Positions 1-8,684 of a stretch of DNA of 35,850 bases are shown in pieces; the stretch's first letter is position 1, and every line of letters begins with the position of its first letter. The notes under the pieces were generated by a model, which saw only the letters and a list, made by a program, of their open reading frames with translations, was not told the origin of the DNA and did no database searches. Source of the stretch: Bacteroidales bacterium (lineage in GTDB: Bacteria > Bacteroidota > Bacteroidia > Bacteroidales > VadinHA17); NCBI GenBank assembly GCA_024762655.1, contig JANTHB010000034.1:1-35850 (forward strand). Reading direction: 5' to 3'. Both the position numbers and the translations under genes were made by a program.

Positions 1-91
1 GGGAGAGATTAGGCTCTGAGAACCTCTAGCAACCCCCCCGGCAACGGAGGAAGGTGCTAAAACCTAATCCCGGCTTTTCGGGAGATGATAA
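1..91 (+). promoter_or_regulatory. SAM-I (S-box) riboswitch aptamer, 5' edge cut by window start
   Basis: The stretch carries the conserved S-box core: AACCTCTAGCAACC (21-34) followed by AAGGTGCTAAAACC (51-64). P3 is capped by CCCCCG-GCAA-CGGAGG (35-50). P4 is CCCG/CGGG (69-72 with 79-82). GATTAGG (7-13) in loop 2 is fully complementary to CCTAATC (63-69), which fits the S-box pseudoknot. The strand AGATGATAA (83-91) should be the 3' half of P1, so its 5' partner lies upstream of base 1. The gene order behind it (metY, metX, hom, metH, metF) fits SAM-dependent repression. No clear intrinsic terminator with a U tract follows, so the expression platform is unclear. Confidence 0.87.
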
Positions 92-107
92 ATTTAATGC
101 TAGGACC

Positions 108-227
108 ATGAAAAAATCAGAGCAGAGTACTACAGTCAAAAAACAGCAGACCGGTACGTCTGTTTCTTACATCCATCTTTCTTTCCGCAATTTCATTATG
201 CCACTCATGCCTATGTGCATGTGCTAG
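108..227 (+). CDS. Candidate Met/Cys-rich leader peptide, 39 aa
   Basis: An ATG at 108, preceded by AGGA, opens a 39-codon frame closed by TAG at 225-227. The N-terminal half is basic and polar (MKKSEQSTT...), then comes SYIHLSFRNFI, and the last nine residues are MPLMPMCMC. Four Met and two Cys codons fall in the final nine codons, directly before the stop. The frame sits between a SAM riboswitch and metY, whose enzyme makes homocysteine from sulfide. This is the arrangement of an attenuation leader peptide, where ribosome speed over codons for the pathway product controls the downstream genes. The strong hairpin at 227-253 starts on the stop codon. I do not recognise it as a named family; translation and function are inferred. 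An internal ATG at 198 is an alternative start. Confidence 0.6.
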   Translation: MKKSEQSTTVKKQQTGTSVSYIHLSFRNFIMPLMPMCMC

Positions 228-262: not shown

Positions 263-281
263 CCTGCCATCATCGGGCAGG
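263..281 (+). promoter_or_regulatory. Second hairpin in the metY leader
   Basis: CCTGCC (263-268) pairs with GGCAGG (276-281) around a 7-nt loop. AT-rich sequence follows, but no U tract, so it is not a canonical intrinsic terminator. It lies 50 bases upstream of the metY start and may belong to the expression platform of the riboswitch or leader ORF. Confidence 0.45.
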
Positions 282-285
282 ATAG

Positions 286-1626
<1,341 letters not shown>

Positions 1627-1630
1627 CCCT

Positions 1631-2647
1631 ATGGCCCCGGAAAAAATAAAAATAACGGAACCCTTTCCGCTCGAAGCGGGAGGTGTACTGCCCGGAGTGG
1701 AGATTACCTGGCATACTTTCGGTACCCTGAACCATGCCGGAGACAATGTGATCTGGGTGTGCCATGCCCTGACCGCCAATTCCGACGTAAGTGAATGGTG
1801 GCCGGGCATGGTGGGCCCGGGGCTGTTGCTGGATACGGATAAATATTTTATTGTATGTGCCAATATTCTGGGATCCTGTTACGGTTCTACCGGGCCTATG
1901 TCCGTCAATCCCCAAACGGGAAAACCCTGGTTCCGCTCTTTTCCGCTGATCACTTTCCGGGATGTGGTGAGAGGACACGAACTGGTGCGGAAACACCTGG
2001 GCATAAAAAAGATACGAATGATCATCGGCGGGTCTATCGGGGGACAGCAGGCCCTGGAGTATGCCATTATGTATCCGGACCTGATTGAACGGCTGGTTTT
2101 TTTGGCCTCCAGTGTCCGGTATGCCCCCTGGGGAATTGCTTTCAGCCAGTCTATGCGCCTGGCCATAGAGGCAGATCCTACCTTTGAAAAGGATATCCCG
2201 GGCGGGGGAAACAAAGGGTTGAGGGCTGCCCGTTCCATCGCTTTGCTGAGCTATCGGAATGATGCCATCTATAATAAAACACAGAGGGAAGAAGATGAAA
2301 ACAAACTGAAGGATTTCCGGGCTTCTTCCTATCAAAATTACCAGGGGGACAAGCTGGTACGCCGTTTTGACGCTTATACGTATTATCTGCTTACCCTTTT
2401 GTCAGATACGCACAATGTGGGACGTGGCCGGGGAGGTGTGGAAAAAGCCCTGCAACAGATCAAAGCCCGCGTGCTCTCGGTAGGGATCTCAAGTGATCTG
2501 TTGTTCCCGGTTTATGAACAAAAATACCTTGCGGAACATGTAAAAAACGGGAAGTATGTTGAAATGGATTCCCTGTACGGCCACGACGGGTTCCTGGTAG
2601 AAACGGAAAAACTGACGGAAATGATTAGACCGTTTTTGGAAGAATGA
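1631..2647 (+). CDS. metX: Homoserine O-acyltransferase (MetX type)
   Basis: This alpha/beta-hydrolase-fold enzyme activates homoserine by acyl transfer, giving the substrate of the preceding gene. The expected triad is visible: nucleophile Ser135 in GGSIGGQQAL, Asp289 in SSDLLFP and His318 in GHDGFL. The family core (WHTFGTLN, VCHALTANSD, GSCYGSTGP) is intact, and 338 aa is slightly short of the usual 350-380. Pairing with metY argues for acetyl-CoA as donor. Sequence alone does not exclude succinyl-CoA, since MetX enzymes of both specificities are known. An ATG at 1623 overlapping the metY stop closes after a few codons, so 1631 is the start. Confidence 0.95.
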   Translation: MAPEKIKITEPFPLEAGGVLPGVEITWHTFGTLNHAGDNVIWVCHALTANSDVSEWWPGMVGPGLLLDTDKYFIVCANILGSCYGSTGPMSVNPQTGKPWFRSFPLITFRDVVRGHELVRKHLGIKKIRMIIGGSIGGQQALEYAIMYPDLIERLVFLASSVRYAPWGIAFSQSMRLAIEADPTFEKDIPGGGNKGLRAARSIALLSYRNDAIYNKTQREEDENKLKDFRASSYQNYQGDKLVRRFDAYTYYLLTLLSDTHNVGRGRGGVEKALQQIKARVLSVGISSDLLFPVYEQKYLAEHVKNGKYVEMDSLYGHDGFLVETEKLTEMIRPFLEE

Positions 2648-2739: not shown

Positions 2740-3951
2740 ATGAACCGACAAAACGTAAAAATAGGATTATTCGGCTACGGGGTGGTAGGTCAGGGACTGC
2801 ATGATGTCCTGAACAAAAGCCGTGGTTTTCATGCCGATATCAAACGCATCTGTGTGAAACACCGCAATAAGAAGCGCCGCCTTCCCATGCATTATTTTAC
2901 CTGGGACAAAAAGGATATTCTCAACGATCCGGAAATCAATCTTGTGGTAGAGTTGATAGATGATGCGGAAGAAGCTTTTGACATCGTTTCCACCGCGCTC
3001 TCACAGGGTAAAAACGTGGTAACAGCCAACAAGAAAATGGTGGCCGAACGCATGGACGAATTAATAAGTATTCAGGAAAAAAACAACGTTTCTCTTTTGT
3101 ATGAAGGAGCTGTGTGCGGAGCCATTCCGGTCATCAGAAACCTGGAAGAATATTACGACAACGAGCTGCTTTTCTCCATTCGCGGGATATTCAACGGTTC
3201 AACCAATTATATTTTATCTAAAATGTTCAATGAAAACCGGGACTACGAAGAGGTATTACGGGAAGCTCAGAACCTGGGCTTCGCAGAGAGTGATCCCTGG
3301 CTTGATGTCTCGGGTACCGATGCAAACTATAAGTTGAGTATCATCATGGAACATGCCTATGGGCTTTATATACGGCCTGAAAATATTTTTCATCTGGGGA
3401 TCACCAATATCAATTCACAGGACATGCAGTTTGCCCGGGAGAAAGGGTACCGTATTAAGCTGGTCCCTTATGCCGGGAGGGTAGGAAAGGATGAACTTAC
3501 CGGTTTTGTTTTACCCCGGTTTTTAACTGCTGATAAGAAACTTTTTTCGGTAGATAATGAATTTAACGGCGTGGTGGTTGAAGCCGCTTTCGCGGAAAAG
3601 CAGTTTTTTTATGGCAAAGGTGCCGGGGGACACCCTACCGGGTCGGCGGTCTTGTCGGATATCTCGGCCAATTCATTCTTTTATGCCTATGAATACAAAA
3701 AAAGAAAACAAAATCTGGGATTATATTATACGACTGATGTAACTTTGGAAGTTTATTTCAGGTATCAGGATAAGAAAGACATAGATCTGCTGGATTTTGA
3801 CGAAATTACGGAAAGCTATACAGGACCTGCGTATAATTATAGGATTGGGAAGATACATCTGCAGGAACTCTTTGTAAAGAAAGGAGACCTATTAAAGAAG
3901 AATGTGAGCGTGATCAATACGGGTTTCAAACCGGAAAAAAGAAACATATGA
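2740..3951 (+). CDS. hom: Homoserine dehydrogenase, monofunctional, no recognisable ACT domain
   Basis: It reduces aspartate semialdehyde to homoserine, which MetX then acylates. The Rossmann motif is G12-Y-G14-VV-G17. The catalytic domain shows [34 protein letters not shown] and [19 protein letters not shown], all typical of the family. At 403 aa, the last 80 residues (from about [13 protein letters not shown]) do not read like a normal ACT domain with its hydrophobic PGVLA-type turn, so classical threonine feedback may be missing. That suggests a methionine-dedicated isozyme. Its stop overlaps the metH start (ATGA), implying translational coupling. Confidence 0.92.
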
Positions 3952-6900
3952 AAAAAAAGGAAATACAAAAAATCCTGCAGAATCGCATATTGGTAATGGA
4001 CGGGGCCATGGGGACTATGATCCAGGATTTCGGACTACAGGAAGAGGATTACCGCGGGGAGAGGTTCCGGGATTACGACACCCCTTTGAAAGGCAACAAT
4101 GATTTGCTGGTGCTGACCCGTGCGGAGGTAATACGGAGTATACACGAACAGTATCTTGAGGCGGGGGCTGATTTTATTGAGACGAATACCTTCAATGCCA
4201 ACCGTATATCCCTGGCTGATTACAGGATGGAAGATCTTGCTTATGAGATCAATGTGGCGGCAGCACGCCTGGCACGACAGACGGCTGATGAGTTTACAAA
4301 AAAGACCCCCGGGAAGCCCCGGTTTGTCATTGGCTCCATGGGCCCTACCAATAAAACGGCTTCTATGTCTCCCAAAGTGGAAGATCCGGGATACCGTGCC
4401 GTTACCTTCGATGATCTGAGGGATGCATATGCCATACAGGCGCGGGGGCTGATTGAGGGAGGGGTGGATCTGTTGATGCTGGAGACCGTCTTTGATACCC
4501 TGAACGCCAAAGCCGGACTCTATGGCATTCAGGAAGTTTTCCGGGAAACAGGCAAAGAAGTGCCCGTAATGGTCTCGGCAACGATTGTGGATGCCAGTGG
4601 ACGAACCCTCTCGGGACAGACTCTTGAAGCTTTTGTAATATCCGTGTCTCATGCTCCGTTGTTCAGCATCGGACTGAACTGTTCGCTGGGGGCAAAAGAA
4701 ATAGAGCCGTTTGTGGAAGAACTCTCCGCGATAACCTCTCTGCCCGTAAGCGTGCATCCCAATGCCGGATTTCCTAATCAGTTCGGGGAGTATGAATCTT
4801 CCCCGGAAGAGATGGGAGAAGTACTGGAACGCCTGATGGACGGCGGACATGTTAATATCATCGGGGGATGCTGTGGAACCACTCCTGAACATATTAAAGC
4901 ATTTGTTGCAAGAGCAAAAGGCAAAAAACCGCGTACGCTGCCTGAGAAAAAACCATTGCTTCAACTTAGCGGCCTGGAACCTTTAAAGGTCTTTGAAGAA
5001 AGCAATCTGATCAATATAGGTGAACGAACCAATGTGTCTGGTTCGCGGAAATTTGCCCGTCTGATCAGGGAAGAGAACTATGAAGAAGCTTTGTCCGTGG
5101 CCCGGCAACAGGTGGAAAACGGGGCCCAGGTGATAGATGTGAGCATGGATGATGCTATGCTGGATGCGGAAAAGGCCATGGTATATTTTCTCAACCTGCT
5201 GGCCGCCGACCCGGAAATTGCCCGGGTACCTGTAATGATAGATTCGTCCAAATGGGAAATTCTGGAGGCGGGATTAAAGTGTTTGCAGGGAAAAGGAATC
5301 GTCAACTCCATCAGCCTGAAGGAAGGTGAAGAAGACTTTTTGAATAAAGCGGACAAGATCAGAAAATACGGAGCGGCAGCTATCGTGATGGCCTTTGATG
5401 AAGAGGGTCAGGCAACCACTTTCGAAAGAAAAACAGAGATTGCCCGGAGAGCGTACCGGCTCCTTACGGAAAAAATTCATTTTCCGCCGGAAGACATTGT
5501 TTTTGACCTGAACATTCTGGCGATAGGTACCGGCATGGAAGAGCATGCGGATTATGCGGTCCACTTTATCAAAGCGGTGAAATGGGTGAAGGATAACCTG
5601 CCTTATGTTCATACCAGCGGGGGAGTGAGTAATCTTTCTTTTTCCTTTCGCGGGCATAATGTGATCCGCGAGGCCATACACTCTTCTTTTCTGTATCATG
5701 CCATACAGGCCGGACTGGATATGGCCATTGTCAATGCGGGCAACCTGCCTTTGTATGACGATATCCCTAAGGATTTGCTGGAGCTGGTGGAAGATCTGAT
5801 CTTCAACCGCCGGCCGGATGCTACGGAGCGGTTGCTGGAATATGCCGAAACCGCAGGAAAAACAGAAAGCAAGGGAAAAACGGAAAAAGACGCCTGGCGG
5901 AAAAAACCACTCAAAGAACGGATCATCCATTCCCTGGTAAAAGGTATTGCCGATTTTGTGGAAGAGGATATGCAGGAAGCGATCGGCGCTTATCCTTCAG
6001 CCCTGGACATCATTGAAGGGCCTATGATGGATGGGATGAATATTGTCGGGGATTTGTTCGGATCGGGAAAGATGTTCCTGCCCCAGGTAATAAAGAGCGC
6101 ACGCGTGATGAAAAAAGCGGTGGCTGTTCTGGAACCGGTACTGGAAAAAGAAAAAGCTGCCGGGGGGAAAAGACAAACCGCCGGAAAAGTTTTGCTGGCA
6201 ACGGTGAAAGGAGATGTACACGATATAGGAAAAAATATTGTAGGCATTGTTTTACAGTGTAATAATTATGAAATCATTGACTTGGGGGTGATGGTTCCTG
6301 CAGAGAAAATCCTGGAAACAGCCCACAGGGAAAAAGCGGATATCATCGGGCTGAGCGGACTGATTACCCCTTCGCTTGAGGAAATGGTACATGTGGCGGA
6401 CGAGATGAAAAAGAAAAACTTCGAACAACCCCTCATGATCGGAGGAGCAACCACCTCGGTGCTGCACACAGCCGTAAAAATACAGCCACATTACCCCAAC
6501 GGGGTTATCCATGTCAAAGATGCTTCGAAAAGTGTAACGGTGGTGAGCAACCTTCTCTCGGAAGCAAAAGAGAATTTTCTCAGGGAGGTGGATACCCAAT
6601 ATGAAGATCTCCGGACCATGAACCGCAAAATCCCCAGGAAATTTCTGACGCTGGACAAAGCACGGGAAAACAAACCGAAACTGCCCTGGCAAACTTACAA
6701 ATCTCCTGTGCCACGCCGGCAGGGTATCACGGTCTTTGAGGATGTTCCTTTGCCAACCATTATTCCTTTTATCGACTGGACTTTCTTTTTCCATGTGTGG
6801 GAGCTGAAAGGAAGGTTCCCTGATATTCTCGATCATCCTCAAAAAGGGAAAGAAGCTACCCGTGTTTATAAAGAGGCTTTGGATTTTCTGGACCGTTTGG

Positions 6901-7625
6901 TGGAAGACAGGATACTGAAAGTGCAGGCTGTGACAGGAATCTTTCCGGCTGCTTCCGAAGGAGATGATATCGTGGTGTTTGAGAACGAGGGACGGAAAAA
7001 TCTTAAAGGCAAACTTTTCCAATTGCGACAACAGGAAGCCAAAACCTCTTCGGGACACAATCTTTGTCTGAGTGATTTTGTAGCCCCGGCAGAGAGTGGT
7101 GTAAACGATTATATCGGTACGTTTGCGGTGACCGCTGGTGTAGGTATTGAATATTATCTGGAAAAATATCAGAAAGAGCATGATGACTATGGTGCTGTAA
7201 TGGTAAAGGCCCTGGCAGACAGGCTAGCCGAAGCAGCTACCGAATGGCTTCACCTGAAAGTGAGAAAAGAGCTGTGGGGCTTCTCTTCAGATGAAGAACT
7301 TACGCTGGAAGATCTGTTCCAGACAAGGTACAGGGGTATCAGACCGGCATACGGGTATCCGGCATGTCCGGATCATGCGGGTAAAAAAGACCTGTTTGAA
7401 ATTCTGGAGGCAGAGAAGCACATACATATCCGGTTGACTGAAAATTTTGCCATGGAACCCGGCGCCTCGGTGAGCGGACTGATCTTCTCACATCCCGAAT
7501 CCACATACTTCGACATCAGAAAGATCCTTAATGACCAGCTAGAGGATTATGCAAGAAGAAAAAACCTGCCGGTGGAAACCGTAAAAAAACATTTGCTACA
7601 CATTTTGTATCAGGAAGAAAAATAA
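3948..7625 (+). CDS. metH: Cobalamin-dependent methionine synthase, full length
   Basis: It transfers the methyl group of 5-methyl-THF to homocysteine through methylcobalamin. At 1225 aa it matches the classical four-module protein. The homocysteine/zinc domain spans about 1-325, with ligands Cys245 (LNCSLGAKE) and Cys308-Cys309 ([10 protein letters not shown]). The pterin domain spans about 350-620 ([23 protein letters not shown]). The cobalamin domain spans about 650-890, with His758 in [11 protein letters not shown] and the [11 protein letters not shown] loop. The reactivation domain runs from about 900 to the end ([15 protein letters not shown]). A fused activation domain means a flavodoxin-type reductant is needed. 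I saw no cobalamin riboswitch upstream, so control probably comes from the operon promoter and riboswitch. Confidence 0.98.
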
Positions 7626-7724: not shown

Positions 7725-8684
7725 ATGGGGAAAAAAGTAATAGAAACGATCAAAAACGCTGACAAAACGCTCTTTTCATTTGAATTACTCCCTCCGCCAA
7801 AAGGGCAGGGAATTGAGTATATATATAAAATTATGGACTCGCTGATTGAGTTCAATCCGGCCTATGTGAATATTACCTATCATCAGGAAGAAGTGGTATA
7901 CCGGAAGGTCAAAGGGAATCTACTTGAAAGAAGGGTGGTATGGAAAAGACCGGGGACGGTGGCTATTTCGGCAGCCATAAAATATAAATATGGCGTTATG
8001 GTGGTGCCGCATCTGATATGTGGAGGTTTTACCCGTGAGGAGACAGAGAACGCTCTGATTGACCTGAACTTCCTGGACATACACAATGTGTTGGTGGTCA
8101 GGGGAGATCCTTTGCCCGGCAGCAAAGTCTTTATTCCCGAAGAAGGAGGGCATGTCCATGCGATTGACCTGGTGAAGCAGGTAATAGATCTGAACAAAGG
8201 AATTTATATAGACCCGGAGCTGATCAATCCCCAACCTACTGATTTTTCTGTGGGGGTGGCAGGGTACTCTGAGAAACATCCCGAATCGCCGAACTTCGAA
8301 TCGGATATACATTTTCTGAAAAAGAAAGTTGAAGCAGGGGCCGAATATATCGTTACGCAGATGTTTTTTGACAACAGGAAATTTTTTGAATTCGAGAAAC
8401 GCTGCCGGGAGGCGGGGATCAATGTGCCTGTTATCCCGGGGATCAAACCGGTTTCCACCCGAAAGCAACTTACCTATCTGCCCAAAACGTTTAACATTGA
8501 TATGCCCGAAGACCTGGTGAAAGAGATCCTGAAATGTAAGAATAACGAAGAGGTTTATGAACTGGGCATTGAGTGGGGTATCCGGCAGGTCCGGGAACTG
8601 ATGGACCACGGGGTGCCCGTAATACATTTTTACACCATGGGACGCACGGATAATGTGCGCAGAATTGCGGAAGAGGTATTCTAG
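7725..8684 (+). CDS. metF: 5,10-methylenetetrahydrofolate reductase
   Basis: This FAD-dependent enzyme makes 5-methyl-THF, the methyl donor of MetH, and closes the operon's logic. The family's catalytic glutamate is Glu20 in FSFELLPPPKG. VRGDP, QMFFDN and PGIKPVSTRKQ follow in the usual order. At 319 aa it is a normal bacterial length of about 300-320. A 99-base AT-rich gap separates it from metH and has an AAGAAATA-like tandem run just before the start. No promoter is obvious there, so it is probably co-transcribed. Confidence 0.96.
   Translation: MGKKVIETIKNADKTLFSFELLPPPKGQGIEYIYKIMDSLIEFNPAYVNITYHQEEVVYRKVKGNLLERRVVWKRPGTVAISAAIKYKYGVMVVPHLICGGFTREETENALIDLNFLDIHNVLVVRGDPLPGSKVFIPEEGGHVHAIDLVKQVIDLNKGIYIDPELINPQPTDFSVGVAGYSEKHPESPNFESDIHFLKKKVEAGAEYIVTQMFFDNRKFFEFEKRCREAGINVPVIPGIKPVSTRKQLTYLPKTFNIDMPEDLVKEILKCKNNEEVYELGIEWGIRQVRELMDHGVPVIHFYTMGRTDNVRRIAEEVF

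Follow-up and report, generated by a model that had tools for sequence, protein, structure and literature searches.

We report that, in a Bacteroidales bacterium, a SAM-I (S box) riboswitch is followed by a short leader peptide ORF with a Met/Cys-rich tail, and that both together probably form a two-input 5′ control region of the methionine operon, in which the riboswitch lies right at the site where leader translation would begin. On the sequence side, the ORF, the Met/Cys tail specific to its frame, the conserved slot of its start and the hairpin at the stop codon were observed in the window (i.e., the whole stretch of 35,850 nucleotides that was analysed) and among its relatives. From these elements we infer leader translation, ribosome stalling, the sign of the response and the involvement of Rho, and the reading that we consider probable is that SAM gates leader translation and that the leader reads the charging of Met-tRNA and Cys-tRNA, through Rho or through a stop-codon hairpin that a stalled ribosome masks. 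At high SAM, the leader would probably remain untranslated and the operon off, and at low SAM the leader would be translated. A shortage of charged Met-tRNA or Cys-tRNA would make the ribosome stall at a Met or Cys codon within the last nine codons, its front edge would cover the 5′ arm of the stop-codon hairpin, and transcription would proceed into metY. When both tRNAs are plentiful, the ribosome would leave, the hairpin would form, the RNA behind would be exposed and transcription would end early, presumably by Rho at loci like the window (which has no U tract) and by intrinsic termination in a few relatives such as L040.

Table 1. Features of the methionine operon and of its putative 5′ control region in the window.
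Feature	Positions	Strand	Basis
SAM-I (S box) riboswitch aptamer	1..94	+	RF00162, 44.4 bits, model 17-108; 5′ side missing at contig end
A/T-rich spacer and leader translation start region	95..107	+	start slot conserved among leaders
Leader peptide ORF, 39 codons + TAG	108..227	+	sequence; same frame and length in three congeners
Putative control-codon tail, ATG CCA CTC ATG CCT ATG TGC ATG TGC	198..224	+	low tail pN/pS, window and three congeners
Hairpin H1, 5′ arm from the last base of the stop codon	227..253	+	-14.9 kcal/mol, z -3.7
Hairpin H2, CCUGCC...GGGCAGG, without U tract	263..281	+	-11.1 kcal/mol, z -2.6; no terminator call on the + strand
metY, O-acetylhomoserine sulfhydrylase	331..1626	+	TIGR01326 668 bits, cut-off 495
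metX, homoserine O-acetyltransferase	1631..2647	+	NF001209 339 bits, cut-off 331
hom, homoserine dehydrogenase	2740..3951	+	NF004976 319 bits, cut-off 205
metH, methionine synthase	3948..7625	+	NF007024 1947 bits, cut-off 1497
metF, methylenetetrahydrofolate reductase	7725..8684	+	TIGR00676 297.4 bits, cut-off 293.7

A terminator or the start of the first gene is expected behind a SAM-I aptamer. The window carries such an RF00162 aptamer and, unlike this expected layout, a leader ORF stands behind it. Because the 5′ side of the aptamer is removed by the start of the contig at base 1, the RF00162 score of the window just equals the gathering score, and the complete aptamer was found in the congeners L039 (73.6 bits) and L043 (72.1 bits). 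The leader starts with the ATG at 108-110, ends with the TAG at 225-227 and is translated as MKKSEQSTTVKKQQTGTSVSYIHLSFRNFIMPLMPMCMC. The initial annotation had placed a 39-codon ORF with the tail MPLMPMCMC between the riboswitch and metY, and had counted six Met or Cys among its last nine codons; the coordinates proved right, as did the count (four Met and two Cys). A GTG start at 54 taken from the program-made ORF list, which falls inside the riboswitch, was set aside, and the relatives share the ATG at 108. To our knowledge, a Shine-Dalgarno sequence is not needed for translation starts in the Bacteroidota phylum. Note that metX, assigned with NF001209, falls under the TIGR01392 cut-off (361 of 500 bits).

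To place this locus in a larger context, RF00162 was searched in 36 relatives (17 matched) and in 393 genomes of the order (114 matched), from which 139 SAM-I sites above the cut-off were taken and oriented, the weaker rows G309 and G320 being excluded. Leaders were called from the first ATG at most 45 nt behind the riboswitch, with a length of 12–70 aa; this rule overlooks tails located in a second ORF (L164, L170 and L171, and a short one in L037), so that the counts lean low. A short ORF was found close behind the riboswitch at 96 of the 139 sites, corresponding to 95 distinct peptides, in which Met and Cys together make up 26.5% of the last ten residues (4.9% +/- 0.7 in 500 shuffles). Met alone accounts for 18.7% of the tail vs 1.4% of the body and is restricted to approximately the last 12 residues. 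Among the 95 distinct leaders, 71 carry two or more Met/Cys within their final ten residues (8.2 on average in shuffles), 45 three or more (1.0) and 29 four or more (0.1); the 71 tailed leaders are spread over 28 families, as numbered by the tool, and 24 of the 95 ORFs fail the tail rule. The strongest single result is the frame specificity of ATG, which occurs in the last 36 nt of these 95 leaders 189 times in frame against 8 and 9 times out of frame, when the counts per frame are 10/7/5 ahead of the tail and 17/19/19 past the stop. The tail is thus a property of the codons and not of a pattern of RNA letters. As a control, the same rule was passed by 1 of 30 TPP riboswitch sites (those that came with the loci, not all listed TPP matches) vs 71 of the 139 SAM sites. 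Genes could be assigned at 137 of the 139 SAM sites, namely metY, metH, lysC, the HcyBio family, metX or hom. Under one common rule, the arrangement was found at 3 of 47 SAM sites beyond the order, themselves a selection from a longer list of sites, vs 50 of 139 inside it, and thus looks rare outside the order. The three are L187 (G690), L277 (G561) and L291 (G425); one of them has six Cys, and for two of the three ORFs the index behind the riboswitch is 109 and 152.

The initial annotation had proposed that SAM and tRNA charging are read in series and had named conservation of the frame and of the Met/Cys tail in relatives as the check; the outcome supports this reading. Closer to the window, the frame and the tail are kept in other genera of the family and, within the genus, in 4 of 7 genomes (the window plus G002, G003 and G006), three congeners having a leader of the same frame and length (L004/L256, L005/L246 and L243). 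A genus-wide pattern search had matched 5 of the 7 genomes, and the match in G004 was discarded as a chance one, in DNA with neither such a leader nor RF00162. In the window and the three congeners, pN/pS is 0.13 for the last 12 codons vs 0.76 for codons 2-27, values that are only indicative because few changes are involved. The exceptions within the genus are G005 (L042, before metY) and G004 (L044, before metX), in which a SAM riboswitch is followed by a short ORF in the slot (MKGSVSIFCLPCDRGYRFLPVIHDPLM and MKKCFLSPAYLFLFLRVSIR, respectively) without Met/Cys in its tail, the tail being lost or never present there. In G001, a congener that is 85% complete, the RF00162 search gave no match. 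In addition, the metY protein was matched in 58 of 60 genomes, many of the matches being paralogues; in the DNA upstream of 30 metY loci, a Met/Cys-tailed short ORF was found by a script rule in 12 (6/20 + 6/10) and judged by eye also at L012, L014, L016, L026 and L028, and at the remaining loci the upstream DNA was another gene or no such ORF was seen. In other genera of the family the tail is kept and the bodies differ, as in MKDTTKLLQKQYLGFRLKIYFHLTFSDFIMPLMPMCMR and MNSIHLTHNNFIMPLMPMCMCR.

Species-level genomes were also scanned for the pattern CCNYTNMTGCCTATGTSCATG, which yielded 70 stretches, 53 with Bacteroidota-type names and 17 without, according to our own reading of the names. A SAM core was recognised by script ahead of 40 of the 53 Bacteroidota-type stretches and of none of the 17 others, and RF00162 was confirmed at 27 of 35 loci chosen from the scan (11/16 + 16/19), plus L243. 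Since the scan pattern fixes the letters of the tail, only the head codons provide independent evidence for L202-L271, and a conserved tail does not. In the 22-codon leaders (24 distinct), the head codons 2-10, which lie outside the search pattern, display a pN/pS of 0.29, again only indicative because of the few changes. For other families, tail pN/pS is 0.44 in 11 pairs, a set obtained after removal of L171, L100 and the pair L134/L135; in a first pooling, which gave 0.75 for the tail and 0.53 for the body, the ORF taken for L171 had been the wrong one and the row of L100 was shifted. Purifying selection on the tail is therefore clear in some groups only.

The tails differ from family to family (MPLMPMCMC, LPMSMPR, MPRMR, MRMRPCAQ, MDMRCMR and MFMRGMRSMLS); what is kept across families is the amino acid, Met or Cys, and no single motif. 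This diversity bears on the possibility of an arrest peptide. The nascent chain of TnaC, while in the exit tunnel, arrests the ribosome that makes it, and the leader chain (F-x-M-P-L-M-P-M-C-M) could do likewise, with SAM or Met as a possible ligand and no role for charged tRNA. Such a reading, which we regard as unlikely, would fit the near invariance of the tail across 12 aligned sequences from the window's family (CCT in 12/12, TGC in 11/12), the constrained head of the 22-codon group, and the recurrence of Pro and of the MR-stop ending. The latter is the commonest leader ending (18/71), and Arg is also enriched in the tails of the 95 leaders (11.6% vs 4.7%, mostly CGC and CGA). The Arg enrichment and the MR-stop ending, like the conserved wobble bases of CCT and TGC in the window's family, are left unexplained by Met/Cys sensing and give some scope to an arrest peptide. 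However, tails such as MPRMR, MRMRPCAQ, MDMRCMR and CCCCCCC are wholly different at constant Met/Cys content, and plain Met runs occur at L032; a single arrest motif would not vary so. Among the individual genomes, G290 has three SAM sites, with leaders that end in CCCCCCC (L085), FIPRMR (L080) and FCCCFCCC (L114), the Cys runs being written with both TGT and TGC; for the gene after the CCCCCCC leader, the 139 aa that were read matched neither NCBIfam nor Pfam.

Coming back to Met/Cys sensing behind a riboswitch, the position of the leader start is itself conserved. With positions indexed from a point 6 nt ahead of where the riboswitch match ends, 66 of the 71 Met/Cys leaders begin at index 15–22 (median 18), and metH itself begins in this slot (index 17–21) at 8 short sites, so that the slot looks like a natural target of the riboswitch. 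The riboswitch thus seems to be built to control a start codon at the slot, whether that of metH or that of a leader. According to riboswitch-gene distances estimated from alignments (two sites having no assigned gene), a leader is present at 0/17 sites below 100 nt, 5/34 at 100–150 nt, 9/17 at 150–200 nt, 20/28 at 200–250 nt and 35/41 above 250 nt. Leaders before metY or metH were also found without an RF00162 match (L218, L222, L235 (= L026), L253, L254 and L015); L209 was dropped from this group, its riboswitch being interrupted by an assembly gap. Another locus without SAM riboswitch, L032 (G050, metY, positions 1150-1450), displays tandem poly-Met ORFs (...MMMSMMM... and ...MMMGMMQMMMHIM...) and, behind each of them, a hairpin with a T run, the first identified by the terminator scan and the second visible in the sequence as an inverted repeat then T; it may represent a double attenuator of the classical type for methionine. 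Upstream of metY in L028 (G057), a Met-rich ORF, MMNIKTYLLVPPFWMQDMLMLLG (WMQDMLMLLG), likewise has no RF00162 match and bears a strong hairpin, GGGGTAAGC...GCTTACCCC, directly at its stop codon. On the other side of the riboswitch, an inverted element, CAAATATTC...GGGTGTTTG, lies between the promoter and the stem P1 in L004, L005, L258 (with the variant CAGATATTC) and L205, and might either fold into a hairpin or act as a competitor of P1.

The fixed slot could also mean that the leader is a mere translated target of the riboswitch, whose translation at low SAM would shield the RNA from Rho, the Met/Cys content having no sensing role. Rho loading sites are C-rich and G-poor, and the leader body has this composition (C/G 1.72 in 67 leaders), which would suit Rho. 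The tail-less ORFs in the slot of G004 and G005 are in line with this reading, and a precedent is found in the excerpts of a study of the Mycobacterium tuberculosis Mbox, a riboswitch that controls an upstream ORF (uORF) with Rho termination (PMC12810186). However, a mere target explains neither a frame-specific Met/Cys tail in 28 families nor the leaders that have no riboswitch, and we consider it more improbable still than an arrest peptide. Natural variants with the riboswitch only, the leader only or both do exist. We also advance, tentatively, an extension of tRNA-charge reading, which falls somewhat short of being probable: the riboswitch would have no output of its own and would only license the leader, the leader would read Met-tRNA and Cys-tRNA charging, and the operon would be open only at low SAM and with a short amino acid. 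The riboswitch and the leader would then be exchangeable modules, each able to stand alone before the same genes, with codons retuned (Met, Cys or both) per operon.

Regarding the RNA behind the leader, the folding energy of 40-nt stretches relative to dinucleotide shuffles reaches its extreme in the stretch beginning at the stop codon in the 71 leaders (mean z -0.97 +/- 0.19, with 24% of the leaders below z -2), neighbouring stretches being weaker; in the window, the z of the whole region 95-330 is only -1.1. Using RNAalifold on 12 family members, the post-stop hairpin was not recovered, and only a small CATGC-GCATG stem without compensatory changes was found. Because the post-stop stem was misaligned in this 12-member alignment, covariation was assessed on five members picked for stems aligning with at most one gap (a set excluding the window, L256, L246, L041, L206, L225 and L242), in which the stem equivalent to H1 has nine pairs that are 100% standard, three of them changed on both sides. 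This covariation score was equalled by 8 of 500 shuffles, and slid versions of the stem were at most 56% paired.

The conserved letters and the small stem might instead point to a conserved RNA element (GCCUAUGNNCAUG plus a small hairpin) in which the ORF is incidental. In fact CCTATGTGCATG hardly varies within the window's family, and CAUGC is paired with GCAUG by RNAalifold; nevertheless, no pair of this stem is changed on both sides, the flanking Pro and Leu codons vary synonymously (CCA/CCG/CCT/CCC and CTC/CTG/CTT/TTA), ATG stands in frame 189 times vs 17, and CCTATGNNCATG occurs at 25 of the 139 sites vs 71 for the tail, other families keeping the Met/Cys codons without the sequence, which makes this reading very improbable. 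Met and Cys bind metals, and a functional small protein, e.g., a metal-binding Met/Cys peptide, would agree with the conservation of the peptide within some groups, but it is just as improbable, as 137 of the 139 SAM sites precede methionine-pathway genes and no single motif is common to the families.

How transcription would end in the proposed Met/Cys sensing seems to vary among loci. Behind the leader of the window, the terminator scan of the + strand gave no hairpin followed by a U tract. A terminator-like site after the leader was found in 19 of the 71 leaders (shuffled mean 10.5 +/- 2.3), L040 being a clean case with the stop codon, GACTTCAGGC...GTTTGAAGTC and then GTTTTT. The alignment of 21 sequences of the 22-codon group contained no single conserved terminator, and no conserved alternative pairing was found as an antiterminator in the folds examined. 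Amino-acid leader attenuators of the his, trp, leu and thr type combine a short ORF, a run of product codons near its stop and RNA hairpins behind. The present leaders resemble them in having a short ORF before a biosynthetic operon, product codons near the stop and hairpins behind, and differ from them in the Met/Cys codons, the SAM riboswitch ahead, the hairpin that starts at the stop codon and the lack of a canonical terminator in the window. The initial annotation had seen here the form of a classical attenuation leader, of which the conserved frame and the Met/Cys excess near the end of the ORF hold, and the intrinsic terminator is missing in the window; the leader is therefore described as attenuator-like rather than as a classical attenuator. 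The same genome contains, by our reading, a classical His leader (L347, G000:C87) approximately half a kilobase ahead of a hisG match, namely the His-rich ORF MIRTCHHHHFFVSCR with a GC hairpin and then six T behind it, and its Met leader is built differently. Similar His-rich short ORFs (CHHHHFF, HHHHHH) were seen before hisG in congeners (L344-L346 and L348), followed by a GC hairpin and TTTTTT.

Several described systems share parts of this arrangement. In the excerpts of PMC1262725, actinobacterial cys-operon leaders display a run of control codons near the stop and no conserved terminator, Rho being proposed; the window likewise has putative control codons near the stop and no canonical terminator. 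These leaders differ in that they contain Cys only and belong to another phylum, and the excerpts mention no riboswitch ahead of them and report no conserved RNA structure ahead of the methionine operons of Actinobacteria (PMC1262725). The M. tuberculosis Mbox and B12 riboswitches with uORFs are alike in that a riboswitch and the translation of a small upstream ORF act together, and differ in their ligands (Mg2+ and B12), pathway amino-acid codons in the uORF not being described in the excerpts (PMC12810186, PMC11260477). The Sinorhizobium meliloti metA riboswitch has an AUG close behind it (AUG1, in frame with metA and not used in that context) and a terminator ahead of the used start; it is also a SAM riboswitch, but of the SAM-II class, and a Met/Cys leader is not described in the excerpts (PMC9373788). 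General remarks on leader attenuation in Bacteroidota are found in the excerpts of PMC7366714 and PMC9723704, and those of PMC2258182, PMC2965389, PMC9386245 and PMC2864571 contained nothing closer to a Met/Cys leader. As neither a methionine leader nor a Met/Cys leader behind a SAM-I riboswitch was described in the excerpts of the open-licence PubMed Central literature, the Met/Cys leader behind a SAM riboswitch may represent a new class.

Altogether, SAM riboswitches of Bacteroidota often come without a recognisable expression platform, and if the platform is a translated leader, the missing piece would be filled for much of one order. If true, methionine control would pass through two serial steps on one RNA, the sensing of a metabolite and that of tRNA charge. 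The same arrangement is kept in many relatives, so that these cells probably use the leader to gauge their capacity to make protein with Met and Cys before switching on methionine synthesis.
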